Assembly (NCBI GenBank): GCA_025455065.1
Contig: JALONG010000045.1
Location: 1-37,588 of the forward strand
Origin: Candidatus Kapaibacterium sp.
GTDB lineage: Bacteria > Bacteroidota > Ignavibacteria > Kapaibacteriales > UBA4661
DNA length: 37,588 nucleotides
Direction of reading: 5' to 3'
Program-made: the position numbers and the translations under genes
Notes under the pieces: model-generated
What the model was told of the DNA's origin: nothing
Seen by the model: only the letters and a program-made list of their open reading frames with translations
Databases searched by the model: none
Shown here: positions 1,172 to 27,030 of the stretch, in pieces
How positions within the stretch are numbered: the stretch's first letter is position 1
Layout of the letters: each line of letters opens with the position of its first letter

Positions 1172-3532
1172 TTACTCACTCCTAAGTGATTGCACCGGAT
1201 TCGCCTGTGCGGCTCTCAGTGCCTGCCCTGCAACCGTGATAAATGCTATGCCCACAGCACCCACACCTGCTACTGCAAATATCCACCACGATAAATCTAT
1301 GCGATAGGCAAAACTCTGAAGCCATTTACCCATACCCCAGTATGCAAGCGGTGTTGCGAGGAGAATAGCAAGCGCGACCAATTTCAGAAAATCTTTCGAG
1401 AGAAGCCCCACGATACTTGCCGCCGACGCGCCCAACACCTTGCGTACGCCGATTTCTTTTGTGCGAGTTTCCGCCATAAATGCTGCCAAGCCAAGCAATC
1501 CCAAACAACAAATAACCACTGCCAAGCCAGCAAATATGAGCGTTAGACGACTCATCATTGTTTCGGATTTGTACATTTCGTCAAATTCTGCATCCAAAAA
1601 TTTGTAGTCGAACGGTTGTCCGGGTTGGTATTTTGCAAACGTGTTTTGTAGTAGCTTCAAACCCTCCTCTGTTCTTCCTTTTGCAAGTCGAACCAAGATT
1701 CTGTCGGGTCTTGGAGCAAGAACTATCATCATTGGATCTATAGTTTGGTGCATATTTGCGAAGTGAAAATCTTTCACAACACCAACGATTGTCCCTGATT
1801 GTGCATTGGGACCAATGCCCCATTGCAGGGTTTCACCGAGGGGTTTAGCCAAACGCATTTGTTGTACGCAGGTTTCATTGACAATGTAATTCACCGAATC
1901 AGCGGGAAAATTAGCCGAGAAGCCGCGCCCTTCCTTGAGTTGAATACCCATTGTTTCTAAAAATGAATAATCGCCCTGAAAAAACCCAACCATAATTTGT
2001 TCATTGGCTTGCTGACCGCGCCAGCGCATACCACTTGTGTTATTGCCGACGCGAAGGGGCGATTGCCCGCCCGTTCCGGTGATATTTACGATGGCAGGAT
2101 TCGCTTTAAGTTCGCTTTTCCAAGCATTGAAGCGGTCTGCAGGTATATCTACGGGAACGGCAACTACATTTTCACGATCAATGCCGAGGTTTTTTATTTT
2201 GATAAATTCGATTTGTTGATACAAAACAATCGTTGCAACGATAAACGCAACCGCGACAGTAAACTCAAACACGACCAAACCGCGTCGCATAAGAATTGCT
2301 CCGGGACCAGTTTTCATGGTACCTTTCAGCACATTCACCGTTTTGTGCGAGGAAAGTGCGAGGGCAGGATACAGCCCCGAAAGCACACCGACAACAAAGC
2401 CTACAAACGGCATCACGAGCCAGAACCAGAGGTTTGAAAAAGGGATCTGAAGCGTCGCTCCCGTAAGTTCTTTCAAGAGTGGCAAGGAAAATTCGACAAG
2501 AATTATGGCGAAAGGAATTGCTAGAAGTGCCGTGATTACTGATTCTCCAAGCATTTGTGCAATGAGCTTTGTGCGCGTTGCCCCCACCGTTTTGCGAATA
2601 CCGAGTTCTTTGGAACGCCGCAGACCTCTCGCGGATGTGAGATTCATAAAATTCACACACGCCAAAAGCAGCACCATTGCTGCAATTGTGATAAATATTC
2701 TAACCGTCTCTATGCGCCCTCCTTGCTGAATTCCGTTCTCGTATTTGTTGTACAGATACGTGGTGGAAAGCGGCTGAGTGAATAAAAACTGAGTGTCTTT
2801 CGTGTTCGTTTTTCGTTGCAAAAAATCCTTCAAGCGAGCATCTATGCTATTTTGAGAAGCGCCTTCTTTTAGTAAAACAAATGCTTCAAAAGCATTACTT
2901 CCCCATTGCTGCGCCCACTCATTTTCCTTGATGTATTGCTTGAGCGGCAAAACGTACTCGAATCTGAAAGAGGAGTTTTTCGGAATGTCTCGGAACACGC
3001 CTGAAACCTTGACATCGGACTTTGCATCTAGCCGCACTGTTTTTCCAAGCGCGTCGGTTGTCCCAAATAATTTTCGCGCCAACGTCTCGGAAAGCGCGAC
3101 TGTATTGGGTTCGTCGGCAATAGTATTTGCATTGCCCGACAAAAGCGGAAAGCTGAAAACACTGAAAATATCGGAGTTGCCATAGACACCATCTTCACGG
3201 AAAATATTGTTGCCAACAGCAAATGAATTGCGCTCATCCAATGCCTGCGCAACTTGTTCCAGTTCTGGGATGTCAGCCTTAACAGTCTCAACAAAAGGTC
3301 CCGCCATTGCACGATAAACATTCACCGCATTCGAGACTTTTTGTACGCGCAAAACGCGGTAGATTCGGTCTAATTTTTCATTAAAACGGTTGAAACTCCA
3401 TTGGTAATTCACCCACAATAAAATTGCCAAACAGCACGCCAAACCTAGCGCGAAACCGGTAATGTTGATGAGCGAGTAGAGTTTATTGCGGCGCAAGTTA
3501 CGCAGTGCGATTTTGAGATAGTTTTGGAGCAT
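1172..3532 (-). CDS. FtsX/MacB-type ABC transporter permease, 786 aa
   Basis: This is a two-module permease of the inner membrane. It has one helix near residues 18-42, a first MacB-like extracytoplasmic domain to about 280, an FtsX-type bundle with a cytoplasmic coupling motif (LGIRKTVGATR), then a second helix/extracytoplasmic domain/bundle with VGVVKDFHFANMH and EIGVRKVLGAS. It ends in NPVQSLRSE. Proteins of this architecture need a MacB/LolD-like ATPase and act in export or envelope mechanotransmission rather than import; no ATPase gene is present here. The start lies 33 bases after the stop of the upstream permease (3566-5950), so the two probably form one operon. They are also the most similar pair in the array (shared LDRI(Y/H)RVLRVQ and RRSKE(L/F)GIRK), pointing to tandem duplication. 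The substrate is unknown. Confidence 0.92.
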   Translation of the reverse strand: MLQNYLKIALRNLRRNKLYSLINITGFALGLACCLAILLWVNYQWSFNRFNEKLDRIYRVLRVQKVSNAVNVYRAMAGPFVETVKADIPELEQVAQALDERNSFAVGNNIFREDGVYGNSDIFSVFSFPLLSGNANTIADEPNTVALSETLARKLFGTTDALGKTVRLDAKSDVKVSGVFRDIPKNSSFRFEYVLPLKQYIKENEWAQQWGSNAFEAFVLLKEGASQNSIDARLKDFLQRKTNTKDTQFLFTQPLSTTYLYNKYENGIQQGGRIETVRIFITIAAMVLLLACVNFMNLTSARGLRRSKELGIRKTVGATRTKLIAQMLGESVITALLAIPFAIILVEFSLPLLKELTGATLQIPFSNLWFWLVMPFVGFVVGVLSGLYPALALSSHKTVNVLKGTMKTGPGAILMRRGLVVFEFTVAVAFIVATIVLYQQIEFIKIKNLGIDRENVVAVPVDIPADRFNAWKSELKANPAIVNITGTGGQSPLRVGNNTSGMRWRGQQANEQIMVGFFQGDYSFLETMGIQLKEGRGFSANFPADSVNYIVNETCVQQMRLAKPLGETLQWGIGPNAQSGTIVGVVKDFHFANMHQTIDPMMIVLAPRPDRILVRLAKGRTEEGLKLLQNTFAKYQPGQPFDYKFLDAEFDEMYKSETMMSRLTLIFAGLAVVICCLGLLGLAAFMAETRTKEIGVRKVLGASAASIVGLLSKDFLKLVALAILLATPLAYWGMGKWLQSFAYRIDLSWWIFAVAGVGAVGIAFITVAGQALRAAQANPVQSLRSE

Positions 3533-3565: not shown

Positions 3566-5950
3566 TTATTCGCTTCGTAAAGACTCTATCGGATTCGCCT
3601 CCGCAGCCCGCCACGCCTGAGATGCAACCGTCAAAAACGCTATCAAAACAGCCACCAAGCCTGCGCTGGCAAATACCCACCACGACAAGTCCACTCGGTA
3701 CGCAAAATCCCGAAGCCAAGCGCCCATAACCCAGTATGCAAGCGGTGTAGCAAGTATGATTGCCACAACTATGAGTTTCAAAAAATCTGCCGAAAGCAGC
3801 GTAACGATGCCCGCCACCGACGCGCCCAATACTTTGCGAATACCGATTTCTTTGGTACGTGATTCAGCCATAAATGCCGCTAAACCGAATAACCCCAAGC
3901 AACAAATCATAACCGCCAACCCTGCAAATACGAATGCGAGCCGACCAATCATCGTTTCGGAAGTGTATATTTCATCAAACTGTTCGTCCAAAAATTTGTA
4001 GTCTAAGGGCAGTCCGGGTTGATACTTTGGATAAGTGCGGCGAAGCGCATTCAAGCCCTCTTCTACCCTACCCGCCGCAAAGCGCACAAATACGCGGTCT
4101 GGAAGATCGCCATAGGTAAACATCATCGGTTCAATAGCATCGTGCATTGAAGCAAAGTGGAAATCTTGCACCACACCCACGATTGTTCCCGATAGAGCAT
4201 TTGCGCCATTTCCCCAGCGAAGCGTTTCGCCAACAGGGTTTTCTAGGCGCATTTGGCGAGCGCACGTTTCGTTGATGATGTAGTTTGCAGTGTCGGCGGC
4301 AAATTTCGGCGAAAAGCCTCGTCCAGCCTTGATGACAATGCCCATCGTGGTGAGGAAATCTTCGTCGCCGTGCAGATGAAACACATTCATTTTTTCGTTC
4401 GGAGCCTGCCCTTTCCAGTGCATCGCACTTGTACTGCTTCGCACATGTACAGGTGATGGAGAGCCGCCTCCCGATACACTAAGGATAGCTTTTTCCGACA
4501 GTAATTCTGCTTTCCATGTAGCAAATCGCTCTGATGATAGATTCACTGGAAACGAGACCACATTTTCGCGTTGCAATCCCAGATTTTTCGTTTTGATAAA
4601 TTCGATTTGACGATACATCACGATTGTTCCAGCGATAAACATCACCGCCACCGCAAACTCGCCAACAACCAAGGTGCGGCGCAGCAGCACAGCTCGCGGA
4701 CCCGATTGTAATGTTCCTTTCAACACACTACTTGTCGCAAAGGACGAGAGCGCAAAAGCAGGATACGCCCCGGCAATTACGCCAATAACACCACCAAACA
4801 CCAATAAACCAAGCCAAAACTGCGGCTCAACAAAAGGAATCTGCAACTGGTCGCCAAACTGTTCACCAAGTAGATTTCTCAAGGCGGGCAGAGCCAGTTC
4901 GACAATCAATAGCGCGAGTGGTAGCGCCGCAAACGCCATCAATACTGATTCTCCAACAATCTGCGCAGCAAGCTGCGAGCGACGCGCACCAACGCTTTTG
5001 CGAATGCCAAACTCTTTCGAGCGGCGCACACCTCGCGCTGTTGTGAGATTCGTAAAATTCATACACGCCAGAGCCAGCACCAATGCTGCAATAGCAAGGA
5101 ACATCCGCACCGTCTCGATTCTGCCACCAACAAGTACGCCGTTTTCAAACCGACTATACAGGTGCATATCGGCGAATGGCTGGGTGATAAGTGTTTGTCC
5201 GTCGCGCAGATTGCCCTTTTCTGCGAGAAAATCCTTCAACACCGCATCCACACTGCCCACCGAAACCCCTTCACGCAAAAGGAAATAGGTACGAAAAGCA
5301 GAATTGTCCCACCGTTGCGCCCAAGCGTTGTTGCGGACGTAGTGTTTCAAGGGCAGTGCGTACTCAAAACGAAGCGAGGAATGGCGCGGAATATCGAGGA
5401 ATATCGCCGTTATTTTGCAATCAACCGCTGCATCTAAACGTACTGTTTTTCCAATGAGCGAATGTACCGGTGTGTCGGCGAAGAGCTTCCGTGCAAGGCT
5501 TTCAGAAAGTGCGAGAGAGTTCGGTTCGTCCAACATCGTTGTAGCATTACCAGCAGCGAGGGGAAAATCAAACAGAGAAAACGCCTCAGAATGAGTAAAT
5601 ACGCCCTCTTCACGGAAGATGTTATTCCCGTCGGTGAAGACATTTTCTTCCGCCATCACTTGTGCGAGGGATTCTATCTGTGGGATATTTGCTTTGGCTG
5701 CATCAGCAAACGCACCTGAAATAGCGGCGCTCACAACGGTTGGCTGCCCTTCAATTTGCTGCACTCGCAGTACGCGGTGAATTCTGTCAAGTTTTGTGTG
5801 GAAGCGATTGACACTCCACTCCTGCCTCACCCACAGCAAAATCACCAAACAACAGGCAATACCAAGCGCAAAACCGATGATATTGATGGCGGAATAGCCC
5901 TTGTGCCGCGAGAGATTACGCAGCGCGATTTTGAGGTAGTTGGAGAGCAT
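3566..5950 (-). CDS. FtsX/MacB-type ABC transporter permease, 794 aa
   Basis: It has the same two-module layout as its neighbour: start MLSNYLKIALRNL, a first helix with the SAINIIGFALG motif, a first extracytoplasmic domain containing LALSESLARKLF, an FtsX bundle with FGIRKSVGARR, a second half starting near LLRRTLVVGEF, GTIVGVVQDFHF in the second extracytoplasmic domain, and a last bundle with EIGIRKVLGAS. The C-terminus is NPIESLRSE. It is probably the first gene of an operon with 1172-3532. Upstream, 65 bases separate it from a divergent Uma2-like gene at 6016. That spacer is recognisably related to the one upstream of the permease at 13983-16403, so the permease 5' end and its divergent neighbour were duplicated together. 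No ATPase partner is encoded nearby. Confidence 0.92.
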   Translation of the reverse strand: MLSNYLKIALRNLSRHKGYSAINIIGFALGIACCLVILLWVRQEWSVNRFHTKLDRIHRVLRVQQIEGQPTVVSAAISGAFADAAKANIPQIESLAQVMAEENVFTDGNNIFREEGVFTHSEAFSLFDFPLAAGNATTMLDEPNSLALSESLARKLFADTPVHSLIGKTVRLDAAVDCKITAIFLDIPRHSSLRFEYALPLKHYVRNNAWAQRWDNSAFRTYFLLREGVSVGSVDAVLKDFLAEKGNLRDGQTLITQPFADMHLYSRFENGVLVGGRIETVRMFLAIAALVLALACMNFTNLTTARGVRRSKEFGIRKSVGARRSQLAAQIVGESVLMAFAALPLALLIVELALPALRNLLGEQFGDQLQIPFVEPQFWLGLLVFGGVIGVIAGAYPAFALSSFATSSVLKGTLQSGPRAVLLRRTLVVGEFAVAVMFIAGTIVMYRQIEFIKTKNLGLQRENVVSFPVNLSSERFATWKAELLSEKAILSVSGGGSPSPVHVRSSTSAMHWKGQAPNEKMNVFHLHGDEDFLTTMGIVIKAGRGFSPKFAADTANYIINETCARQMRLENPVGETLRWGNGANALSGTIVGVVQDFHFASMHDAIEPMMFTYGDLPDRVFVRFAAGRVEEGLNALRRTYPKYQPGLPLDYKFLDEQFDEIYTSETMIGRLAFVFAGLAVMICCLGLFGLAAFMAESRTKEIGIRKVLGASVAGIVTLLSADFLKLIVVAIILATPLAYWVMGAWLRDFAYRVDLSWWVFASAGLVAVLIAFLTVASQAWRAAEANPIESLRSE

Positions 5951-6353: not shown

Positions 6354-9131
6354 CTACTCACTCCTCAGCGATTTCACAGGATTCGCCTGCGCAGCCCGCC
6401 ACGACTGCCCTACAACCGTCATAAATGCGATGAACAACGCTAAAATACCAGAGACTGCAAATAACCACCATTCAGGAGTAACTTTATATGCAAAATCTTG
6501 AAGCCATCGCCCCGAAATCCAGTATCCAAGCGGTATTGCAATCACAACCCCCAAAGCAACAATTTTTAGAAAATCACTGCTCAACAGCATCACAATATTC
6601 GCCACCGATGCGCCCAAAACCTTACGAATACCGATTTCTTTTGTTCGTTGTTCAACAGTAAAAATTGCTAGACCAAATAAGCCAAAACACGCAATGCTAA
6701 TCATGAGCAGCGTCATTGTGCCGAGAATACTTGAAAATTGGCGGTCTTGCTTGTATTGCAGATTGTAGAGGTCATCCAAAAACTTCGCTTCAAAAGGCGA
6801 CATTGGATACGTGCGATTGTATGCCGCTTCTATACGTTTCAATGCTTCTTTCACAGCCGCTCCTTGCAGTCCCGATTCCAGCGAAATCGAATATGCGCCA
6901 TGTCCCGGGAAGATAGTAAATATCAAGGGTTTGATGGATTGGTGCAATGATTCTTGGTGAAAATCTTTTACAACACCTACAATGGTCGCACTTTTTACCC
7001 ATGGCAAGACTATGGTTTTACCGATAGCTTCTTGTGCAGAACGATACCCCAAAAGTCCAAGAGCGGTTTCATTCAGTACGGCAGCTTGATTTTGAAGCCC
7101 GTACTCTCTTGAAAAGTTTTTTCCAGCGATAAATTTCATACCGTAGTTTTGCAGATAGTCGTAATCAACACCAATAACTCCATATGAATATGTGTGGGTT
7201 TCGTCGGGGTCGTCCGTTCTGCGAATCTGCCCGCCATATGTTGGGACTGCCATTCCGGGAATATCTGTCGAAGCAGTAATTGTGCGCACTCCCGGTACTT
7301 TCAGTATCTCTTGCTTAAACGCATCAAAACTTGCATTGTACATTTCGTTACTGCCTTGAATATCTCCTGCCCGTACAACGAGTGTTTGTGCGCTTTTGAA
7401 GCCTAAATCGCGGGTAAGCAAAAAGTTGATTTGACGATTCATCACCAACGTTCCGACAATAAGCACAACTGCCACAACAAACTGCACCAGAATCAGCGCA
7501 GTACGAAAGGAAAATTTACTTAATCGCTCATGGATTCTGCCTTGTAGAGCATTGGAAGGTGTAAATGTCATAAATGAAAGCGCAGGATACACCGCAGAAA
7601 GCACCGTTCCAAGCACAACCAAGCCAACAACGAAGCCCCATGTTCCAAAATCCCACAGGAGATTCCCGCTCAAAAGGTGCAAGGGACGCTCTGTAAAATC
7701 TGCAAAAGGTTTCAGAAAAATTTCAACAAAGCCAAGCGCAATGACCAATGACAAGGCGTTCAACACAAGCGGTTCGGCGAAAAACTGCTTGATAAATTCC
7801 GTGCGGCTTGCACCTAAAACTTTCCGAATACCCATATCTTTCAGACGCTCTGTAAACCGCGCCGTTGCTAGGTTGATGTAATTGATATACGCAACTGCCA
7901 AAATCAAAATAGCAATCAAAGAAAGTGCGAACACCGCTTGAGAACTTGCTTCCGGCGTAGATTCCAAATTCGATGTCGTTGTGAGCGCACGAAACGGCTG
8001 AAGGGTAAAAATCTCTTTTGCGTTTGTGCGGCGTAAATTATCCCCCGTACTTTTTTCACACAAGCTCCCAATCATTGATGCAAGCCGTGTTCGGTCGGTA
8101 TTCGGTTTCAAATGCAAATACGTGTAAAAGGAGTACCAATCCCAATTTTGATTGAGGTTCTTGTTTTGTGCCTCCATTGTTGCCACCGAAACAAGCATGG
8201 AGAATTGTATGCGTGAGTTCGCAGGAGGTTCTTTCACAACGCCCGTTACCTTCCACAGCGCATCCCGCTTGAAAGAGAGTGTTTGCCCAAGAGGATTCTG
8301 TGTACCGAAATATTTCTTGGCGATTTTTTCTGTCAAAACCACGGAATTTGGCTCAGAAAGCGCTTCATTACTTGTGCCAAGAAGCATTGGGAAGGTAAAC
8401 ATTTGTAAAAAGTCAGCATCGGCATAAAAAATCTTGTCTTCAAAAAATTGCGCATCTTGGAAGACAAGTTTCGTCTCCGGCAAGCCGATTCGCGCAATGG
8501 AGTTTGTATTTCCATTGGTGTCGGTTTGGCGGAGCGGGTTTGCGGGGTCGGTCATCCATTCGTTTTCCACAATGAATTTGTATTCATGCTGAATTGGTTT
8601 CGGAAATGTGAGAGAAATTGACCATTCATGCTCTCCGCCTTGTTTACCATTACTCGCAAGCAATATAGAATCAGGCTTCCAGCCGTTAAATGTTCCTGCA
8701 ATGCTAACACGCTTCGCTTTATCAAAACCTTTCAGCGTAAATACTTTTGCAACGCCATTCTTCGAGACCTCTTGGGAAAGGAGAGAGGATGAATCTTCCA
8801 CTGCCCTCGCAATACTAATCATTCCGGTCGCTTTTATCATTCTTGTAGCATGGAGAACATCCTCCGAAGCAGCTTTTATCTGCGGTGCAACAGACGGATA
8901 GGTCGTTGCCGAAAGATACTGCCGCGCTCCATTTTGCAAGCGTTCTTCGTTTACACGCACGATATTATCCGCGTTTAGGTGGAAATTATCGTAACTCCAC
9001 TCAAAACGAATAAAGAGGATAAGCAGCGTAGCCGCGCAAATGCTTGTTATCAAGCCAAAAAGCATGATAAATGCCATTCCAGGGCGGCGGCGCATATTGC
9101 GCAGAGCAAGTTTGAGATTGGAGAGAAACAT
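6354..9131 (-). CDS. FtsX/MacB-type ABC permease with inserted CBM48/AMPK-like domain, 925 aa
   Basis: The permease parts match the array: a helix at about 20-42, FtsX bundle at about 397-510 with MGIRKVLGASR, second half starting near residue 544, IVGVVKDFHQESL, last bundle with EIGIRKVLGAS, and C-terminus NPVKSLRSE. It is about 120 residues longer than its paralogues. The extra length lies in the first extracytoplasmic domain, at about residues 128-216: VFTLKGFDKAKRVSIAG, TFNGWKPDS, EYKFIVENEWMTDPANP and GNTNSIARI. This order matches the AMPK glycogen-binding/CBM48 E-set fold (V-x-(L/I)-x-G-x-FN-x-W, then YKF-x-V-x-x-x-W-x-x-DP, then N(N/S)). The start lies 32 bases after the lipoprotein stop, so the two are likely co-transcribed. 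The domain call is from motif reading only; ligand binding is not shown. Confidence 0.92.
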   Translation of the reverse strand: MFLSNLKLALRNMRRRPGMAFIMLFGLITSICAATLLILFIRFEWSYDNFHLNADNIVRVNEERLQNGARQYLSATTYPSVAPQIKAASEDVLHATRMIKATGMISIARAVEDSSSLLSQEVSKNGVAKVFTLKGFDKAKRVSIAGTFNGWKPDSILLASNGKQGGEHEWSISLTFPKPIQHEYKFIVENEWMTDPANPLRQTDTNGNTNSIARIGLPETKLVFQDAQFFEDKIFYADADFLQMFTFPMLLGTSNEALSEPNSVVLTEKIAKKYFGTQNPLGQTLSFKRDALWKVTGVVKEPPANSRIQFSMLVSVATMEAQNKNLNQNWDWYSFYTYLHLKPNTDRTRLASMIGSLCEKSTGDNLRRTNAKEIFTLQPFRALTTTSNLESTPEASSQAVFALSLIAILILAVAYINYINLATARFTERLKDMGIRKVLGASRTEFIKQFFAEPLVLNALSLVIALGFVEIFLKPFADFTERPLHLLSGNLLWDFGTWGFVVGLVVLGTVLSAVYPALSFMTFTPSNALQGRIHERLSKFSFRTALILVQFVVAVVLIVGTLVMNRQINFLLTRDLGFKSAQTLVVRAGDIQGSNEMYNASFDAFKQEILKVPGVRTITASTDIPGMAVPTYGGQIRRTDDPDETHTYSYGVIGVDYDYLQNYGMKFIAGKNFSREYGLQNQAAVLNETALGLLGYRSAQEAIGKTIVLPWVKSATIVGVVKDFHQESLHQSIKPLIFTIFPGHGAYSISLESGLQGAAVKEALKRIEAAYNRTYPMSPFEAKFLDDLYNLQYKQDRQFSSILGTMTLLMISIACFGLFGLAIFTVEQRTKEIGIRKVLGASVANIVMLLSSDFLKIVALGVVIAIPLGYWISGRWLQDFAYKVTPEWWLFAVSGILALFIAFMTVVGQSWRAAQANPVKSLRSE
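8484..8750 (-). other. CBM48/AMPK-glycogen-binding-like domain inside the permease
   Basis: This segment encodes about residues 128-216 of the 925-residue permease. The seen signatures are a beta-strand start VFTLKGF, SIAGTFNGW, a spacer with polar residues, HEWSISLTF, HEYKFIVENEW, TDPANP and TNSIARI. The five complete paralogues lack it and go directly from the first extracytoplasmic strand region to FADA/YADA-type motifs. That makes it an insertion rather than ancestral sequence lost five times. Confidence 0.7.
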
Positions 9132-9163: not shown

Positions 9164-9547
9164 TTACTTAGCTTGTGGCTGATTTGGCGTATTGTCTTTA
9201 TAGCCCATACTTGGAAAGAACATACTGTAAATATCAACTTTTATGGTGGCTGCAAGAAAAGCTGAATTTTTGAAGGCGACCGCTGTATTAGGGTTGATGC
9301 TGTATTCAGACGATTCACCCGGCTTCAAGGTGCCAAGCGGCGTTGCAACTCCATTCAGAGAATTTGCAACAACTTCCACATCAAAAAGCCCGACATTCTT
9401 TACATTTGCTTTGTAAGCGGGGTGTTCGCCTTCGCCCAAGACGAAGGTTTTATTCGGGTCAATCGTTGTGGTGGAGTAGTAGGAAGCGCACGATTGCACC
9501 AGTGTTGCAGAAAAAGCGAGAGCGGCGAGAACAAGAAAATTTTTCAT
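9164..9547 (-). CDS. Small predicted lipoprotein, 127 aa
   Basis: The ATG at 9547 is preferred because it gives a proper lipoprotein signal: MKNF, a hydrophobic stretch, then ATLVQSC with Cys about 20 residues from the start. A longer upstream reading would bury this signal. The mature part has alternating beta-type sequence (ANVKNVGLFDVEVVANSL, TLKPGESSEYSI, NPNTAVAFKNSA), suggestive of a small beta-sandwich, but I do not recognise the family. The acidic/hydroxyl-rich residues after Cys do not indicate its final membrane. It is followed after 32 bases by the CBM48-containing permease and is probably its co-transcribed envelope partner. A palindrome and a weak promoter lie directly upstream. 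Confidence 0.8.
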   Translation of the reverse strand: MKNFLVLAALAFSATLVQSCASYYSTTTIDPNKTFVLGEGEHPAYKANVKNVGLFDVEVVANSLNGVATPLGTLKPGESSEYSINPNTAVAFKNSAFLAATIKVDIYSMFFPSMGYKDNTPNQPQAK

Positions 9548-13982: not shown

Positions 13983-16403
13983 CTACTCACTCCTCAGCGA
14001 CTGCACCGGATTCGCCTGTGCTGCTCTCAGTGCCTGCCCTGCAACCGTCATAAACGCTATGCCGACAGCACCTGCCCCCGACAATGCAAATATCCACCAC
14101 GATAGTTCGGTTTTGTACGCAAAATCTTGAAGCCATGCCCCCATACCCCAGTATGCAAGAGGTGTTGCGAGTACAATAGCAATTCCTACCAATTTCAAAA
14201 AGTCTTTTGAGAGTAGCCCGATAATACTTGTTGCCGATGCGCCCAGCACTTTGCGGATGCCGATTTCTTTCGTGCGCTGCTCTGCGGTGTATGCGGCAAG
14301 ACCGAATAAGCCTAAGCAAGCTACAAGAATAGCCACACTTGTAAAGACTGCAAGAATAGAACCGGTGCGCTGTTCGGCACGATACGCATTAGCAAAAGCA
14401 TCGTCAGCAAATTGATATTCAAATGGTTTATTGGGATAAAGTTTTTTCCACGTTGATTCAAGCGAAGCAAGCACTGATGAGGTTTGTGAGGCATCAAACT
14501 GCACACTTGTTGCACCCATTGTATGTCCAAAAAAGAGTATGAGAGGATTGATATTATTGCGTAACGATTCAAAGTGGAAATCTTTCACAACGCCAATAAC
14601 GGTGAACGTTTTAAGGTTATTAGACATATTGCTTGTCGTGATGAATTTGCCAATCGGGTCTTGACCTGCAAAAAGGCGGTTTGCAAATGTTTCATTGATA
14701 ACTACGTTCATCGAATCACTAATATTTGCTGCCTCAAAATTGCGCCCTTTGATAATTTGCATAGAAAATGTCGGAATAAAATCCGCATCCACGCGCCATT
14801 GCTGGGTTACTTGCCCATTTTCCTGCTGATTACCGATGAAGGTAAGGTTATTGTTGCGGTCGCCGCCTGTTGGTAAATAGTTAGTTACAGTTGCATTTTT
14901 AACCCCCGCAAGTCGCATTACTTCTTGCTTGTAGCGATGAGTGGTTTCTGTTATGCGAGTATCGGGGTCTTGCACCATCACAATCTGCTCGCGCTTGTAG
15001 CCAAGCTGCTTTGTTTGAATAAAATTCAACTGTTGGTAAATAATGAGCGTTCCAATAATCAACGCCACCGACGCTGTAAACTGTACCACAACTAGCGTTG
15101 AACGAAGTGTATTGTTACGGCTTCCGCTAGATTTATCCCCTTTCAAGACTTTCACGGGTTGATACCCCGACAACACCAATGCGGGATACATACCCGCAAG
15201 AAGGCTTACAACCAAAAACAATGCACCAAATAACGCTGCAAAGAACGGCGTGTGTATCATGGAGCGAGAAAGTTCTTTCCCCGAAAGCGCATTAAATGAA
15301 GGAAGAAATATTTCAATGCAGCAAAACGCCAGCACCAGAGCCGCAGCAACCATTATTCCCGATTCCATGAGAAATTGCCAAACAAGCTGCAAACGTTGTG
15401 AACCAAGCGTTTTGCGAATACCAACTTCTTTTGCTCGGTTTGAAGCCCGCGCCGTTGCTAAGTTCATAAAGTTCACACACGCAATAAGCAAGACGCACAC
15501 GGCTACCGCCGAAAATACCCAAACGTATTGAATATTGCCGTTCGGCGAGAGTTCGCCTATTTTCGCCCCAGAATACAGATGAATCTTTGTAAGCGGCATC
15601 AAAGGGTATTTGTAATGATTGCCTGCCTTCAGAAATTCTTCGTACGTCGTTTTGACTTCTTTAGCAAATGCAGGTACAATGTAGGTCTTTACCATCGTTT
15701 TCAATTTTTCATCTATAATGTTAGGATTCGTACCGGGTTTGAGCAAGATGTAGGTCTGGAAGTTATTGCCAAGCCAGTTATTTTGGCGCGAGTCACCAAT
15801 ATCACGCATGGCAATCAATACCGAAAACGGCAAATGCACATTCTTCGGTAGATTTTCCATCACTGCGCCGACGGTGTAGGTTTTATCATTGTCCCCAACG
15901 AGTTGTTTACCAATCGGGTTTTCGTTTCCGAAGTATTTTTTTGCTAACGATTCGGTAATGACAATTCCGTGTTCTGTCCTCAAAGCCTCTTCACCACTGC
16001 CTTGTAGGACTTTCAACGAAAACACTCTGAAGAACGTGGAATCCGCATACGCAACATTTGCTTCACGAAAAACTGCATTTCCATTGCGAAAATTCCATGC
16101 TCCGTTTACACGAAAGCGTGTGTATTCCCCGACTTCAGGGATTTCACGTTTCATCTGAGGTCCAAGCGGGTCCGGAACAACAGCAATGTTGTACTGTTGC
16201 CCTTGAAATTTCACATCTCCCTCAATACGATAGATTCTATCAGCATTGGCGAAGAATGTATCAAAAGAAAGTTCGTCAAGAACATAGAGCGTAATGAGCG
16301 CACAAACACTAATTCCGAGCGCAAGCCCGATGATATTGATTGCACTAAAGCCTTTTTGCCTAAGAAGGCTTCGGAGCGCGATTTTAAGATAGTTAGAGAG
16401 CAT
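13983..16403 (-). CDS. FtsX/MacB-type ABC transporter permease, 806 aa
   Basis: The ATG at 16403 (MLSNYLKIALRSLLRQ) matches paralogue starts; an in-frame ATG at 16472 would add 23 unrelated residues. The layout is a first helix with SAINIIGLALG, the first extracytoplasmic domain with GIVITESLAKKYFG, an FtsX bundle with VGIRKTLGSQR, a second half from LRSTLVVVQF, TVIGVVKDFHFESL, a last bundle with EIGIRKVLGAS and the end NPVQSLRSE. The last 120 residues are close to those of the 1172-3532 and 19611-22019 copies even at DNA level, which suggests gene conversion. It is divergent from the decayed Uma2-like gene 92 bases away. It converges with the TPR gene, whose stop is only 44 bases from its own. 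Confidence 0.92.
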   Translation of the reverse strand: MLSNYLKIALRSLLRQKGFSAINIIGLALGISVCALITLYVLDELSFDTFFANADRIYRIEGDVKFQGQQYNIAVVPDPLGPQMKREIPEVGEYTRFRVNGAWNFRNGNAVFREANVAYADSTFFRVFSLKVLQGSGEEALRTEHGIVITESLAKKYFGNENPIGKQLVGDNDKTYTVGAVMENLPKNVHLPFSVLIAMRDIGDSRQNNWLGNNFQTYILLKPGTNPNIIDEKLKTMVKTYIVPAFAKEVKTTYEEFLKAGNHYKYPLMPLTKIHLYSGAKIGELSPNGNIQYVWVFSAVAVCVLLIACVNFMNLATARASNRAKEVGIRKTLGSQRLQLVWQFLMESGIMVAAALVLAFCCIEIFLPSFNALSGKELSRSMIHTPFFAALFGALFLVVSLLAGMYPALVLSGYQPVKVLKGDKSSGSRNNTLRSTLVVVQFTASVALIIGTLIIYQQLNFIQTKQLGYKREQIVMVQDPDTRITETTHRYKQEVMRLAGVKNATVTNYLPTGGDRNNNLTFIGNQQENGQVTQQWRVDADFIPTFSMQIIKGRNFEAANISDSMNVVINETFANRLFAGQDPIGKFITTSNMSNNLKTFTVIGVVKDFHFESLRNNINPLILFFGHTMGATSVQFDASQTSSVLASLESTWKKLYPNKPFEYQFADDAFANAYRAEQRTGSILAVFTSVAILVACLGLFGLAAYTAEQRTKEIGIRKVLGASATSIIGLLSKDFLKLVGIAIVLATPLAYWGMGAWLQDFAYKTELSWWIFALSGAGAVGIAFMTVAGQALRAAQANPVQSLRSE

Positions 16404-16495
16404 TTTCGTTTTGAAAAATAGTGCTAAAAATGTAGTTTTATTTGATTGTTCAACATTACAGAATCTCAGCATGATTCCTTGAGGAAGTAATAATC

Positions 16496-17124: not shown

Positions 17125-19566
17125 CTACTCACTCCTTAACGACTGCACAGGATTCGCTCCCGCCGCCCTCAACGCCTGCCATGCTACCGTTACAAATGCT
17201 ACGCAGACAGCACTCACGCCCGCTACGGCAAATATCCACCACGACAATTCGGTTTTGTATTCAAAGTCTTGCAACCAACGGCTTGCAGCCCAGTACGAAA
17301 GCGGGGTTGCGAGAATAATTGCAATACCGACCAACGCCAGAAAATCCTTCGACAAAAGCCCGATAATTCCTGCTTCCGTAGCACCAAGCACCTTGCGGAT
17401 ACCGATTTCCTTTGTTCTGACTTCCGCCGAGAATGCTGCCAAACCGAATAATCCCAAACACGCGATAAACACCGCAAGGCTTGCAAAGACTGTTACAATG
17501 CGGCTTGTACGCACTTCTGTTTTGTAGAATTTGTTGAAATTTTCATCCACAAACGAATAATCAAACACCCAATTCGGTGCAAAATCATTCCAAACGCGCT
17601 CAATTTGCGCCATTGTTCCACGCGCATCGCTTGTATTCATGCGCACAACGAAACGGCGTACTTCGCTATTGTTTATCATAAAAATTGCCGGGGCAATTTT
17701 GCTGTGAAGAGATTGATAATGGAAATCCTTGACTATTCCAATGATCTCACCCTTACGCGAAGGCTGCTTGCCATACCATTCCAAACGAGTACCGATGCGC
17801 TTCCCATCATTTACGTTTGCTTGCTTGCCGATTCCCAGTGCATTTGCAGCCGCTTCATTCAGCAAGAATGCGCCGTTTGCATCACCTCCTCTCACAGCCT
17901 CGAAATTACGTCCTTCGACAAGAGTCATTCCCATTGTCTGTAGATAATCCTCATCAACAATAAACCGAGAAACCAACACGTTTTTGTCTAATGGTGCGCC
18001 TTCAAGCGTTACAGGGTTTTCGCTTGTTCCTGCGTCTCCCGGTACTAAATCCGCTCCGGCAACGCTCATTACGCCGGAGACCTGCCGCAAAGCCGCTTTC
18101 ATACTTGCCTTTCTTGGCTCAAACAATGAATCATTCGGCAAAGAAAGCGTAAGCACTTGTTCTTTCTTGAAGCCTAAATCTTTGGACTGAGTAAAATCTA
18201 ACTGCTTCAAAATCACAATTGTACCTGCCACGAGAATAATTGAGACGGCAAATTGCATGATAACAAGTCCTTTCCGCAATGTCGCCCCCGTTGAAGTGCG
18301 CACAAATGCACCTTTCAAGACTTTCACCGGTGCAAAGCCCGACAGCGCCAGTGCCGGATATGTTCCCGCAAGAACGCCGACCAACAACGCAAATGACACA
18401 AACACAAGTATTTGTGCGCTATTGGCAATATACCCCACGGAAAGATGTGTTTCCATGACACTGTTCACGAGTGGTAATGCCGCTTCCACCAGCACCAATG
18501 CGAGGGCAAGCGCAATGAGACTAATAACAACGGATTCACTCAGAAACTGCATCATCAGTTGAGAGCGAGCCGCTCCGAAGACTTTTCGCATACCCACTTC
18601 TCGTGCGCGTCGTGTAGAGCGGGCTGTGGAAAGATTCATAAAATTGATACACGCCAAAAGCAAGATAACAAGCGCGATTCCGCCGACGATGCGTAAGGTC
18701 TGCATACTTCCTTGAGGCTGTATTTCTCCCTCTACCGGATTCAAGTGTATTTCTCGAAGTGGCTGCAAATCAAGTGTGAAACTGATGTTTACCCTTTTAA
18801 GGGTGTTTCCTAAATGCTTCTCCACAAAAGAAGGGAATTTTGCCTTGAGTGCAGCCAATGATGAGCCTTCGCGGACTTTGATGTAGGTATGCTGTTCTGT
18901 GAATGCAAACCACATCTGCCGCATTTCAACCCCACTTTTTTGCCACTGCCCAATGAGAAATTCTATCGGGATAAGCGCATCAAATCTGACGTGACGGTTA
19001 TTTGGCAGATTTTTGATGACACCTGTTACGGTAAAATACTCGCTATTATCAACACGAAGGGTCTTACCAAGCGCGGGTTCATTGCCGAAATATTTTTTTG
19101 CCAAATCCTCCGTAAGCACGATAGATTGGGGTGTTTTGAGCGCAGTTGCTGGATTTCCGGCGATAAATTCCGAAGGGAACATTTGGAAAAAACCGTCATC
19201 GGCATACATCACTTGCTTCTCCAAAAATTTATTTGCACCATTCGCAAAGAGCGCACGACCATTGGCGTTCAGGCGGATTGCCTGCTCAATTTCAGGCATT
19301 TCCGCTTTCAGCGTCGGGGCGAGTGGGAACTGCGTTGCAGCCATTGTGCTGACTGAGCCTGCATCTTTGCGATCAATGGTAGGATTGATGCGATATACAC
19401 GGTCGTTCTGTGGCACATCGGCATCAAACCTTAGTTCTTCCCGAATGAACAATGCCAATACAAGGCAGCACGCCATTCCAACAGCAAGTCCGATGATGTT
19501 GATAGCAGAATATGATTTTTGCCTCGAAAGGCTGCGAAGCGCGATTTTAAGGTAGTTGGAGAGCAT
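17125..19566 (-). CDS. FtsX/MacB-type ABC transporter permease, 813 aa
   Basis: The ATG at 19566 (MLSNYLKIALRSLSRQ) is chosen from paralogues; longer readings include sequence overlapping the upstream gene's end. Its parts are a first helix with SAINIIGLAVG, the first domain with SIVLTEDLAKKYFG, an FtsX bundle with VGMRKVFGAAR, a second half from LRKGLVIMQFAVS, GEIIGIVKDFHYQSL, a last bundle with EIGIRKVLGAT and the end NPVQSLRSE. It lies 44 bases after the stop of 19611-22019, so the two likely share a transcript. The mid region after the second helix (SFTLDLQPLREIHLNPVEGE) is specific to this copy. No ATPase or fusion protein is adjacent. Confidence 0.92.
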   Translation of the reverse strand: MLSNYLKIALRSLSRQKSYSAINIIGLAVGMACCLVLALFIREELRFDADVPQNDRVYRINPTIDRKDAGSVSTMAATQFPLAPTLKAEMPEIEQAIRLNANGRALFANGANKFLEKQVMYADDGFFQMFPSEFIAGNPATALKTPQSIVLTEDLAKKYFGNEPALGKTLRVDNSEYFTVTGVIKNLPNNRHVRFDALIPIEFLIGQWQKSGVEMRQMWFAFTEQHTYIKVREGSSLAALKAKFPSFVEKHLGNTLKRVNISFTLDLQPLREIHLNPVEGEIQPQGSMQTLRIVGGIALVILLLACINFMNLSTARSTRRAREVGMRKVFGAARSQLMMQFLSESVVISLIALALALVLVEAALPLVNSVMETHLSVGYIANSAQILVFVSFALLVGVLAGTYPALALSGFAPVKVLKGAFVRTSTGATLRKGLVIMQFAVSIILVAGTIVILKQLDFTQSKDLGFKKEQVLTLSLPNDSLFEPRKASMKAALRQVSGVMSVAGADLVPGDAGTSENPVTLEGAPLDKNVLVSRFIVDEDYLQTMGMTLVEGRNFEAVRGGDANGAFLLNEAAANALGIGKQANVNDGKRIGTRLEWYGKQPSRKGEIIGIVKDFHYQSLHSKIAPAIFMINNSEVRRFVVRMNTSDARGTMAQIERVWNDFAPNWVFDYSFVDENFNKFYKTEVRTSRIVTVFASLAVFIACLGLFGLAAFSAEVRTKEIGIRKVLGATEAGIIGLLSKDFLALVGIAIILATPLSYWAASRWLQDFEYKTELSWWIFAVAGVSAVCVAFVTVAWQALRAAGANPVQSLRSE

Positions 19567-19610
19567 AATTGTTGTGGATTTGAATTGATAGAAATAATCT
19601 ATGTTTGGAA

Positions 19611-22019
19611 TTATTCGCTTCGTAGCGACTGCACAGGATTTGCCCGCGCCGCCCGCCATGACTGCCCTGCAACCGTGATAAACGCTATTCCAACTGCACC
19701 TACACCCGCCAATGCAAAAATCCACCATGATAGTTCGGTTTTATATGCAAAATCTTGAAGCCACTTCGATGAAATATAGTAGGCAACAGGTACTGAGAGA
19801 ATTATAGCTACCATAACTAACATCAAAAAATCTTTTGACAACAACCCAATAATGCTTGCGACCGAAGCCCCTAAAACTTTGCGGATACCAATTTCTTTTG
19901 TGCGCGTTTCGGCGGTGTATGCCGCCAAACCAAGTAATCCCAAACAAGAAATCGCAATCGCAATTCCAGCAAAGACCGCAACCACTGACCGCAACTGTTG
20001 TTCGCGCTTGTAGGTTTCGTTAAACTCATCGTCTAAAAATGAATACTCAAAGGGGCGATTAGGAACAGCTTGTTTCCATGCGGCTTCCAGAGCTTGGAGA
20101 GTTTGCGTGGGGTCGCCTTTACCCAGTTTTATGCTCATATTACCCATAAATTGAGGATAGTAATGAATAAGAAGTGGCTCAATCTCTTTGCGCAGCGTTC
20201 CTACGTGGAAATCTTTGACAACGCCCAGCACACGTCCTGTTTTTTCAATGTGCCAACCACTCGCCTTTTCACCTATGTTGTAGCCGATTTCTTTGCCAAT
20301 CGCAGTGCCATTTTCCCACTTGAGTTTTTTTGCAGCAGCTTCGTTCACAAGAAAACCACTCGTTTTGTCTGTTTCTGAACCGTTTAAGCCGCGTCCTTCC
20401 TTGAGTTCAATACCGTAGAGTTTCATAAATGTATCATCTATGCAGAGCCATTTGATATTGGGGTCTTTGTCACCGGAGGCGAGATATTTGAACTCAATCG
20501 GCATTTGAATAAGTACATCACTTTTACCCGGAAGGCTGCTGGAAACGGCAACTCCTTGTACGCCTGAAGTCGCTTGGAATCTCGTTTTCAAGACATCTAT
20601 CTGTTCTCTATCATCTTCACCACGCATTTGAACAATCAAAATATGCTCACGGTTAAAGCCCATATTCTTGGAAACAATGTAATTAAGCTGATTTTGGACA
20701 ATCAGCGTACCGCAAATCATCGCAATCGAAACCGTAAATTGTGCAACGACCAATACAGAACGGAGCGAGAATCGTCCTGAACCCGTTTGAAGTCTTGTAT
20801 TGGCAGCGCTGCTTTTTAGTGCATCAACAGGCTTAAAGCCGGAGAGCATTATTGCAGGATACACACCAGCAAAGAGGCTCACCGCCAGAAGTGTAGCAAC
20901 GATGATACTTCCAAGCAATGCCAGATTTCCGCCTAATAATTGTAGATGTTTTCCTGTGAGTGTATTGAAGGTTGGTAATAGAAGTTCGACCGCAAGAAGC
21001 GAGAAACCGAGAGCGATACAGGTCAGTAGGAATGATTCACCCCAAAACTGCATGGCAAGTTGAAAACGTCCCGCACCAAGCGTTTTGCGAACTCCAACTT
21101 CACGCGCACGACTGCTGTACCGCGCCGTTGCGAGGTTGGTGTAATTGACACACGCCAAAAGCAGAATTATTGCACCCACAATCGCCAGAAAGCCCACTGT
21201 TGCTTGTGCATTCTCATCAACAAGATGAATACTTGTTAGCGGATGCAATGCCAAAACAACCGGAATATCTTTGGCAACTTTGTTTTTAATTTGCTGAAAA
21301 AGTGGCTCTATTGCTTGCGCAGAAGCACCTTCTTTCAGAAGAATATAGGTGAGAAAGGGATTCCAGAACAAACTTTTGAAGCCGTCAGGCAGCGCAAATT
21401 CACGCTTGACGGTTTCCATTGAACCAAGAAGTTCAAATTTCAAGTGCGACGTATGCGGTATATCCCGCATCACGCCTGTAACTTTGAGGTCAAATTTATT
21501 CTCCACTCGAATTACTTTCCCCATTGAATTTTCGGTTCCAAAATACCGTTTTGCAGCACTTTCCGAAATCACAACCGAGTACGGCTCTGCAAGTGCAGTG
21601 TGCATATTTCCTTGCACGAGCGGGAAATCGAATACTTGAAACACATTCGCATCGGCAAATTTTACGGTTTTATCATAAACCTGTTTTTGACCAACCTTGA
21701 GAAGAAGCTGAAGTTCTCCAAAAGGCTCATAAATCCTTGTTCCTGCTTCAATCTGCGGAATATCGGAGGTAAGAATATCCAGCCACGCCGGAGCCGTGTA
21801 TGCAGGCAATTCTCTTGTTGGTTCCCATTGCGTGAAACGGTAGATTCTGTCAGCTTTTGTATGATGTTTGTCGTAGGAAATGTCATCGTAAATATGCAGT
21901 GCGATGAGCAATGTACAAGTAAGACCAAGAGCTAATCCTATGATGTTGATAGTGCTGTACCATTTCTGACGAAGCACAGTTCGGTAGGTGATTTTGGCAA
22001 GGTTCGCAATCATAATCAT
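19611..22019 (-). CDS. FtsX/MacB-type ABC transporter permease, 802 aa
   Basis: The start MIMIANLAKITYRTVLRQ differs from the other copies but then shows STINIIGLALG in the first helix. ATG at 22013 is an equally good start. The first domain has SVVISESAAKRYFG, the FtsX bundle VGVRKTLGAGR, the second half begins near LRSVLVVAQFTVS, and GRVLGVVKDFHVGTL, EIGIRKVLGAS and NPVQSLRSE follow. It is the furthest upstream permease of the array and probably heads an operon with 17125-19566. Its 188-base upstream gap to the histidine kinase gene carries two TGTTC-N6-GAACA sites, making it the copy most likely to be under specific control. Confidence 0.92.
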   Translation of the reverse strand: MIMIANLAKITYRTVLRQKWYSTINIIGLALGLTCTLLIALHIYDDISYDKHHTKADRIYRFTQWEPTRELPAYTAPAWLDILTSDIPQIEAGTRIYEPFGELQLLLKVGQKQVYDKTVKFADANVFQVFDFPLVQGNMHTALAEPYSVVISESAAKRYFGTENSMGKVIRVENKFDLKVTGVMRDIPHTSHLKFELLGSMETVKREFALPDGFKSLFWNPFLTYILLKEGASAQAIEPLFQQIKNKVAKDIPVVLALHPLTSIHLVDENAQATVGFLAIVGAIILLLACVNYTNLATARYSSRAREVGVRKTLGAGRFQLAMQFWGESFLLTCIALGFSLLAVELLLPTFNTLTGKHLQLLGGNLALLGSIIVATLLAVSLFAGVYPAIMLSGFKPVDALKSSAANTRLQTGSGRFSLRSVLVVAQFTVSIAMICGTLIVQNQLNYIVSKNMGFNREHILIVQMRGEDDREQIDVLKTRFQATSGVQGVAVSSSLPGKSDVLIQMPIEFKYLASGDKDPNIKWLCIDDTFMKLYGIELKEGRGLNGSETDKTSGFLVNEAAAKKLKWENGTAIGKEIGYNIGEKASGWHIEKTGRVLGVVKDFHVGTLRKEIEPLLIHYYPQFMGNMSIKLGKGDPTQTLQALEAAWKQAVPNRPFEYSFLDDEFNETYKREQQLRSVVAVFAGIAIAISCLGLLGLAAYTAETRTKEIGIRKVLGASVASIIGLLSKDFLMLVMVAIILSVPVAYYISSKWLQDFAYKTELSWWIFALAGVGAVGIAFITVAGQSWRAARANPVQSLRSE

Positions 22020-24552: not shown

Positions 24553-26895
24553 TTACATAGCTTCAGGGCGAACCCCCTCAAGGAAATAGGTCTGCATAGT
24601 GCCTTTTCCTTTGATTTCTATTTCACCGCGTTTCTCGAAGAGGAATTCTTCTTCTAATGCTTCAAAAACCGCTTCTGAACAGTGTACTCGACCCGGTTCT
24701 CCGTGAGATTCCATGCGGCTTGCTGTATTCACGCTATCGCCCCAAAGGTCATACGCAAATTTATTTTGTCCGATAACTCCTGCGGTGGCTTCGCCGCAAT
24801 GCAATCCGATACGAATGCTCAAATCTACATTCAAAAATTCTGAGCAACGTTTGATTTCTTCAGTCATCTGCAAACCAAGATGAGCCATTGCTGCCAAATG
24901 GTCTTTGCGCGAATTAAGCAGACCACCCGCGACCATATACGCATCACCAATGGTCTTGATTTTCTCCAAGCCGAGGTTTTGCGTTAATGTATCAAATGCT
25001 GAAAATACAACATTGAGCATTTCAACGAGTTCTTGGGGGCTGACACGCGCTGAAAGTTTTGTAAATCCAACAATGTCAGCAAACATGACACTTACATTTG
25101 GCAAACCGTCCGCAATGCTTCCTTCACCTTTTTTTAAGCGTTCAGCGATAGCTTCTGGCAAAATACTTTTCAGTAAATGGTCAGATTTCTCGCGTTCATG
25201 CTGCACTTGAGCAATGTATTTATGCTGATTTCGACGGATATTGTAAAGTTCATAATGAAATTTTAACCGTGCAATAATTTCTTCTTTTTGAAAGGGCTTG
25301 ATGACATAATCAGCGCCGCCTGAAGAAAAACCTTTCACTATCGCATCCGTATCATTCATACCGCTCATAAAAATGACTGGAATATCTTCCGTTTCCGGCA
25401 CACTCTTTATTTCCTTACAAACCTCGTATCCATCAATATCCGGAAGAATAATATCCAGTAAGATAATATCCGGGGGGCGCTCTGCAACTATATCTAAAGC
25501 AGCATTACCGTCTGCAACGAGCGTCAAATCAAACATTTCTTTATTGAGGATATTTTTGAGCATTGACAAATTTGTCATTGAATCATCTACAATAAGCAAA
25601 GACGGTTTTTCTTCAGTTTTTTTGGCATCTTCTTCTTGCTGTAGGCTTTCTGAAGCAAGTGTTTCGAGCATTGAAATCTCACGGTGAGCCAATTTTTGTT
25701 GTTCAATTTCCTGCTCACCACCTTGTTGCTGCGCCCGCTCAACATCGTACTGCAAAAGACGATTTTGTAATCGCTGTAAATCCTCTGCAAGCCGCATTTT
25801 TTCATTTGTTGTTGCGATATCTTTTTTTTCTTTACTTTCAACCACCTGTTGTTCGATTGTATCACGCAAAGCAGACATAGTTTTGAGCAATTCTTCTTTC
25901 TTTTTTCTACGTTCGGCGAGGCTTTCAAACATACCTTGTAATTTTGAAATATCTTCTTCAGAAGAATGTGCAGCAAGTTTTCTTGTAATACGTCCTGTTT
26001 CTGAGGAAATTATCTCAGGAAGCGTGGTTTCAAGTGTCGCATTTACATTCCCTGATTGGTTTTTAAGCATAGTTTGAACTTCCGCGAGTTGTTTCCTAAT
26101 GGCGTTTTCAGTCAATCGCGGTATATCGGTAACTTCCTGCATGAAGGACTCAAAAACACCAAAATTCTGCACCATTTCGCGTACGGCAAAATGTAACTCC
26201 CCTTGACGGTTAATAGCATCAGATTGAATTTGCCTCATTAACTCCAAATGCTCTTGCACCGCAGCAATCATTTGATGCAATTCGGTATAACTTTGCGGTA
26301 ATGTCTCGCTGTTACTTGTTTGAATCGTGCTTGCGATTGATTCAAGGGCAGAATCAATTTGCTTTTGGATTAAATCCAATTCGGTTCCGAATATATTTGT
26401 AAAATCCTCCCGCAAAAGGTCCGGTAGTGCCACTTGTAAACCATCAAAACTGCTTTGAAACTGGCTTTGAAACTCCTGAATAATATGCTCTTGCACTGAA
26501 TTGGAAAGATGCTCGGGCAGTTCTTCTTGCAATTGAGATTGCACCTTCGCTAGTTGCTCCTGCATCTGTGAGCTAAGTTCGGCTGAAAGCGATAATTGAA
26601 GAGTAGTAAGCGCTTCATTGAGCATTGAAACGGATTCTCTGACTTCTAATGCCAGTGCCTCCGAATTGCTTGAATTTTCTTTCGCAGAACTTTCCACCAG
26701 TGAATGTGTACGCTGGGTTTGGAGCATCAATTTGGAAAAAGCATTTTTCACCTCATTTGTAGCGTGGGACTGCTCCGCAAGGGTGTTTAGACTTGCTTGC
26801 GCGGTTTGTCGGAGTTGCCATAAGAACCATAAAGAAACTCCGGTACTAAAAACGATAAATACCACAAGGCAGAGAATTAAAACTGATTCGGACAT
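24553..26895 (-). CDS. Membrane-anchored coiled-coil/receiver/class III adenylate cyclase, 780 aa
   Basis: The ATG at 26895 gives MSESVLILCLVVFIVF, a clean single N-terminal membrane anchor. About 400 residues follow that are almost all helical and rich in Q, E, L and S, with a coiled coil (ERAQQQGGEQEIEQQK). At about 430-550 is a CheY-type receiver (LLIVDDS, LLDIILPDIDGYEV with the phospho-Asp near 480, VIKPF). At about 590-775 is a class III nucleotidyl cyclase with metal Asp residues in FADIVGFTK and TIGDAYM. Purine-selective residues (EKIKTIGD and YDLWGDSVNTASRM) favour ATP, hence cAMP. The long coiled coil in place of a HAMP or sensory fold is unusual. The receiver could take phosphate from the orphan kinase encoded nearby. 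Longer starts add a Phe/Trp-rich stretch and are less likely. Confidence 0.92.
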   Translation of the reverse strand: MSESVLILCLVVFIVFSTGVSLWFLWQLRQTAQASLNTLAEQSHATNEVKNAFSKLMLQTQRTHSLVESSAKENSSNSEALALEVRESVSMLNEALTTLQLSLSAELSSQMQEQLAKVQSQLQEELPEHLSNSVQEHIIQEFQSQFQSSFDGLQVALPDLLREDFTNIFGTELDLIQKQIDSALESIASTIQTSNSETLPQSYTELHQMIAAVQEHLELMRQIQSDAINRQGELHFAVREMVQNFGVFESFMQEVTDIPRLTENAIRKQLAEVQTMLKNQSGNVNATLETTLPEIISSETGRITRKLAAHSSEEDISKLQGMFESLAERRKKKEELLKTMSALRDTIEQQVVESKEKKDIATTNEKMRLAEDLQRLQNRLLQYDVERAQQQGGEQEIEQQKLAHREISMLETLASESLQQEEDAKKTEEKPSLLIVDDSMTNLSMLKNILNKEMFDLTLVADGNAALDIVAERPPDIILLDIILPDIDGYEVCKEIKSVPETEDIPVIFMSGMNDTDAIVKGFSSGGADYVIKPFQKEEIIARLKFHYELYNIRRNQHKYIAQVQHEREKSDHLLKSILPEAIAERLKKGEGSIADGLPNVSVMFADIVGFTKLSARVSPQELVEMLNVVFSAFDTLTQNLGLEKIKTIGDAYMVAGGLLNSRKDHLAAMAHLGLQMTEEIKRCSEFLNVDLSIRIGLHCGEATAGVIGQNKFAYDLWGDSVNTASRMESHGEPGRVHCSEAVFEALEEEFLFEKRGEIEIKGKGTMQTYFLEGVRPEAM

Positions 26896-27030
26896 AATGA
26901 AAGAAACAAAAAAAAAGGAAGTACACCACATTAGGAAGCCGAAATATACAAATTCATTCATTCAAAATCCTGTGAAAAGAGCATCAATAGCAGAAATTCT
27001 TTGCAGTAAACAAAACTTCATTTTGATTCA

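Follow-up and report, generated by a model that had tools for sequence, protein, structure and literature searches.

An AMPK1_CBM/CBM48-type domain inserted into a duplicated MacB/FtsX-type permease of Candidatus Kapaibacterium: a candidate glycan-binding arm

The window analysed here comprises the 37,588 nt of contig JALONG010000045.1 of Candidatus Kapaibacterium sp. (source genome G000). On its minus strand it encodes a MacB/FtsX-type duplicated permease of 925 amino acids (6354..9131; open reading frame, Pfam, and structural model), which carries an inserted domain of the AMPK1_CBM/CBM48 type, a family of carbohydrate-binding modules (CBM). This is a new domain architecture built from known parts, and a search by titles and abstract openings, mostly outside the subscription journals, found no published account of a CBM in an FtsX/MacB-type permease. 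We take the protein to be a Type VII ABC permease (the MacB/FtsX/LolCE/YbbP, or mechanotransmission, class) and propose, with moderate confidence, that the captured domain serves as a glycan-binding arm on one of its moving heads.

The domain occupies residues 138-215 (8487..8720, minus strand) and was recognised on the permease by the Pfam profile PF16561 (AMPK1_CBM) at 42.5 bits (E 7.6e-11, cut-off 26.8). When the insert alone was compared with the PDB in a single-sequence search, it matched the glycogen-binding domain of AMPK beta-2 (E 1.6e-6), whilst the whole fusion permease matched 3is6, MacB, and AMPK beta, the first two through its body. The family assignment made in a preliminary description of this DNA is therefore upheld. 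MacB_PCD and FtsX scored 107.7 and 87.3 bits on the same chain, in two stretches each, with the best MacB_PCD stretch starting at residue 233, i.e., past the CBM; the second periplasmic head gave no CBM match with Pfam. A search of the whole genome with AMPK1_CBM identified two places, the better of which is the permease insert (47.4 bits). The other, on a different contig, is a 420-residue protein with a C-terminal part that appears esterase-like by eye.

The borders of the insert were set by alignment against 56 permeases of the genus, family, and order, including the window's five. By this measure it comprises residues 108-222 (115 amino acids; 8466..8810, minus strand), all missing from the 56 other permeases, and the stretch around it is 127-131 residues long in the three fusions that we know of, as against 14-25 (median 15) in the others. 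The insertion into an extracytoplasmic domain that had been proposed is supported; the coordinates first given for it, 8484-8750, cover the CBM and fall short of the whole insert. The five intact paralogous permeases of the window, all on the minus strand (1172..3532, 3566..5950, 13983..16472, 17125..19728, and 19611..22019; Pfam and alignment), lack the insert, as the preliminary description had it, and none has an AMPK1_CBM match by Pfam. The G+C content of the insert (0.464) is nearly equal to that of the rest of the gene (0.446). A frameshift at the insert borders had been raised as a possible explanation; we found no sign of one and reject it, along with an assembly artefact, because the reading frame of two congeners is likewise open and includes the insert, so that the frame runs through it in three genomes.

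A model of the full-length protein had a mean pLDDT of 72.9, with the body mostly at 70-90 and the insert at about 30. It contains eight long helices (residues 17-45, 397-438, 443-480, 495-521, 542-573, 794-828, 843-877, and 888-915), which, with the topology of the family also in mind, we take as membrane helices that accompany two predicted periplasmic domains. Over the full length, the structure that it resembles most is E. coli YbbP (Z 24.6, rmsd 9.9, 649 residues aligned), and the first head, with the low-confidence insert left out, resembles the head of a Porphyromonas permease, 3is6 (Z 22.8, rmsd 3.1, 227 of 237 residues aligned). The insert falls between model strands 92-108 and 228-237, at a hairpin tip of the first periplasmic head and ~63 residues past the first membrane helix. 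In MacB, 41 residues of the Porter subdomain precede Sabre, and the role of Sabre is described as less obvious, perhaps a task-specific adaptation, in the available part of the source (PMC5985334). Given these 41 residues in MacB and the ~63 that separate the insert from the helix here, the insert would, by analogy, lie near the start of Sabre. Confidence in the modelled insert is low because the alignment used contained no relatives of it. Modelled alone from its single sequence, it is all-beta, again at low confidence (mean pLDDT 54.9), and with that low-confidence model Foldseek found nothing at E 0.001; its rows were mostly immunoglobulin-like, a CBM21 came 17th, and the best 50 included no AMPK domain. 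The best NCBIfam matches of the permease body were ADOP (TIGR03434; 292.5 bits, cut-off 622.3) and the darobactin exporter DarB (NF038008; 113 bits, cut-off 700). With both scores well below the cut-offs, we did not assign the permease to either family.

The same architecture was looked for in related genomes, as the preliminary description had suggested, and the fusion was found intact in three of the eight genomes of the genus (G000, G005, and G007), at 50-52% identity over the segment searched. AMPK1_CBM scored 47.3 bits in the G005 fusion and 51.4 bits in that of G007 (cut-off 26.8; the latter scored on 843 of 923 residues). Some of the absences within the genus may be assembly gaps, because two genomes that lack the fusion are split into 570 and 680 contigs, and one has a completeness of 86%. 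To cover a wider range, a profile of the three fused segments was run against sampled genomes, 391 from the class and 395 from the phylum (the latter sample without G007), with up to seven candidates scored per genome. Matches across the CBM were found in 3 of the 391 and 2 of the 395 genomes. The three known fusions score 450-473 bits, and the next rows, at 92.8 bits in the class and 96.1 bits in the phylum, are without a CBM. The remaining listed matches sit on the permease flank behind the CBM, although a few extend back to position 121 of 238. In the search of related genomes, a match in G060 had at first seemed to extend into the insert, but the protein has no CBM. The rarity of the arrangement is supported, as in these samples it is confined to the three known genomes.

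By itself, AMPK1_CBM is common, occurring in 207 of the 391 class genomes and 204 of the 395 phylum genomes. Across 60 selected stretches plus L053-L055, 72 ORFs matched our own CBM profile (E 0.01, some at only 15 bits), and none of these 72 matched our own FtsX profile; four proteins from CBM-bearing loci that were scanned with Pfam proved to be a GH13 enzyme, a GH57 enzyme, and two multi-CBM proteins. A whole-permease scan of named genomes returned six loci with best identities of 24-36% (frames were read at four), a plasmid search with the permease returned 42 records, all below 60% identity, and viral collections gave no relative in one search and two weak ones in another.

In a tree of 59 permeases, from which the insert columns had been omitted, the three fusions form one clade (support 100) with a sister (support 97) that is without the insert. 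With one fusion clade and an insert-less sister, a single gain is the simplest account, and the tree would most simply reflect one capture, by the common ancestor of the three species, all of a single genus. We do not claim a donor for the CBM. In a CBM tree with good support for only 11 of its 88 inner branches, the copy nearest by path to that of the window is the first repeat of a congeneric three-CBM protein. When plain identity is used instead, the G005 CBM finds its best match outside the fusions in a different family of the class. Genes for proteins with three AMPK1_CBM repeats lie directly after a gene for a retropepsin-like aspartyl protease at L043:6971-7903 (G007), L044:3616-4935 (G002), and L045:1535-2854 (G001); the G007 protease matches Pfam PF13650, and those of G002 and G001 were judged by sequence likeness. 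Multi-CBM proteins also occur elsewhere in the phylum (L103-L105). Beside the G005 fusion, a permease paralogue occupies two overlapping frames (L039:5092-7591) and is probably decayed.

Numerous permease paralogues, one of them split in this way, and the presence of the fusion in only three of eight congeneric genomes would fit a chance, near-neutral insertion that was tolerated in a redundant permease. We disfavour this explanation and consider it improbable, since the fusions, although diverged to 50-52% identity over the segment searched, still have an open frame, the motifs of the fold, and the contact residues discussed below, and since the non-synonymous rate is equal in insert and body. 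For the three pairs of fusions, the non-synonymous proportions in the CBM and in the rest of the protein are 0.344 and 0.321, 0.323 and 0.326, and 0.213 and 0.210, respectively, with synonymous differences of 0.605-0.81. The inserted CBM evolves as slowly as the permease body and, to judge from these comparisons, is under selection, with signs of use.

The nature of that use is suggested by the residues that contact the carbohydrate. According to the accessible portions of two studies of AMPK beta-1, W100, K126, W133, and N150 are critical for carbohydrate contact (PMC4032982), and glycogen binding is lost in W100G and K126Q and partly disrupted in W133L (PMC6274970). The corresponding residues of the fusion permease, W151, K185, W192, and N210 (8502..8681, minus strand), are kept in all three fusions. 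The comparison set held 91 CBM domains after duplicates had been removed from 108, and 37 of the 88 domains outside the fusions have all four residues. The site is thus more than a family default and is suggestive of glucan binding, although the 37 domains that share it, whatever their ligands, weaken the argument, and membership of CBM48 does not in itself guarantee binding.

The main rival to a glycan-binding arm, which we regard as a real if lesser possibility, is that the inserted E-set domain acts as a docking or spacer module, with a partner protein and no glycan as its ligand, or with a stiffening effect on the head. As in the fusion, CBM48 is appended to another domain in the CE1 esterases of Bacteroidota, where, as far as the available part of the report goes, it packs against the enzyme and either showed no affinity for the glycans tried or did not bind starch (PMC8040265); the heads of Type VII systems can dock a partner protein, as TesA does on YbbP (PMC12646458, in the part available); and a three-CBM protein of the genus weakly resembles a T9SS plug protein model (NF052315; 44.9 bits, cut-off 100). 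Against a docking module stand the four AMPK-type contacts, complete in every fusion whereas 51 of the 88 other domains lack at least one, and the observation that no partner gene common to the three fusion loci was seen in the stretches read (by eye, and partly scanned). This last point, like the low confidence of the modelled insert, also counts against the glycan-binding arm.

If the domain does bind a glycan, as we favour, the chemistry for an alpha-glucan is available, because all eight genomes of the genus encode glycogen synthase and phosphorylase families and the G000 genome has matches to the Alpha-amylase family. Against glycogen itself, the product of these enzymes is presumably cytoplasmic, whereas the insert should face the periplasm; candidates for the ligand also include maltodextrins, exported glucans, and other glycans. 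Alpha-glucan handling by the fusion permease is compatible with the four contact residues that it keeps. Among the 16 window proteins that were scanned, no alpha-glucan enzyme was recognised. An alpha/beta-hydrolase at 33939-35030 of the window, 25 kb from the fusion, matches PF20434 (BD-FAE) at 203 bits and is possibly a carbohydrate esterase.

Immediately upstream of the permease, and ending 32 bases from it on the same strand, lies the gene for a lipoprotein-like protein of 127 amino acids (9164..9547, minus strand), which has a lipobox-like LVQSC motif, identified by eye, and homologues in six of the eight genomes of the genus. The preliminary description paired this protein with the permease. 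Strand and spacing agree with such a partnership, but the homologue lies elsewhere in both other fusion genomes, and we consider the pairing weakly supported. In G007 (L141:7363-13192), the lipoprotein stands in a row with an adaptor, a duplicated permease without a CBM, and two ABC ATPases; the best NCBIfam matches of this adaptor and these ATPases are DarC/DarD, below cut-off. G001 has the same gene order, with the adaptor cut by a contig end. Pfam was run on the adaptors of both genomes and on the G007 permease and ATPases; the G001 ATPases were judged by sequence. In G002 one gene separates the lipoprotein from a permease; the stretches read around the lipoprotein homologues of G005 and G006 showed none. 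In G000 itself the lipoprotein gene was found only beside the fusion, and the genome carries a sister permease followed by two ATPases on another contig (C50). The sister permeases of G001 and G000 were placed in the tree, and that of G007 was judged alike by sequence. Since the lipoprotein homologues of G007 and G001 adjoin permeases without a CBM, and those of G005 and G007 lie away from the fusions, the lipoprotein travels with the permease branch rather than with the CBM.

These neighbourhoods bear on a further explanation, in which the permease and the adjacent lipoprotein belong to an export pump of the MacAB kind, with the CBM serving to read, or recruit, an exported glycoconjugate. It would be in keeping with the G007 row, where the lipoprotein lies between the adaptor and the permease with its two ATPases, with the matching though truncated order in G001, and with the union of the fusion clade and the sister clade containing the G001 permease (support 97). 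We nevertheless give it little credence, as the lipoprotein lies away from the fusion in G005 and G007, the sister-type permeases are without a CBM, and neither a MacA/HlyD-type adaptor nor a MacB/LolD-type ATPase was recognised among the 16 scanned window proteins, where the sole ABC_tran match is a UvrA-like protein. The sister-type permeases of G007 and G001 do have an adaptor gene nearby. We infer that the ATPase of the fusion permease is supplied in trans.

Returning to the glycan-binding arm, we envisage that the CBM at the hairpin tip of the first periplasmic head would bind a periplasmic glycan that resembles an alpha-1,4-glucan. As one head of the two has a CBM, there would be one arm per permease chain. 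ATP-driven opening and closing of the heads would then act on whatever the arm holds, and either a glycan-bearing cargo might be lifted out of the membrane, or the presence of the glycan might set the activity of the machine. It is a more tentative suggestion, and one that we think less likely than the presence of an arm as such, that an alpha-glucan of the periplasm or the cell surface, contacted by way of the CBM, is what the permease actually pulls on or what switches it. The periplasmic side, the placement at Sabre, and mechanotransmission are all inferred here by analogy with characterised relatives.

The features that set the fusion apart are apparent from a comparison with known systems. 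MacB has a single periplasmic domain and carries its ATPase domain in the same chain. MacB and 3is6 share the MacB-type periplasmic domain with the fusion permease, and differ in that their matches include no CBM-like part. Wzt of O-antigen ABC transporters likewise joins a carbohydrate-binding domain to an ABC transporter, although there it is located on the cytoplasmic ATPase subunit and belongs to another fold family. The AMPK beta glycogen-binding domain is of the same Pfam family and has the same W, K, W, and N contacts; it is, however, part of a cytosolic kinase subunit, whereas the domain described here would be carried by an ABC permease, in one of its periplasmic loops. YbbP of the E. 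coli YbbAP-TesA complex, a Type VII system that uses ATP for work on the periplasmic side, is similar in having duplicated permease halves in one chain and two MacB-like periplasmic heads; it differs in having 10 membrane helices, compared with eight in our model, and the part of its published description that is available mentions no glycan-binding domain (PMC12646458).

The phylum has many duplicated permeases, in which the fusion permease offers a readable hint to a substrate. To our knowledge, no substrate is known for most of them. The natural insertion of a well-understood ligand-binding module, apparently near Sabre and under selection, could also be used to test whether the choice of cargo lies with the heads.

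Three other reading frames of the window deserve mention. A MacB_PCD-only frame of 220 amino acids at 91-753 is probably a remnant, or the cut end, of a further permease. At 24553-26961, a response regulator and an adenylate/guanylate cyclase domain are joined in a single chain of 802 amino acids, and at 35275-37158 an Nramp metal transporter and a C-terminal universal stress protein domain form a single chain.
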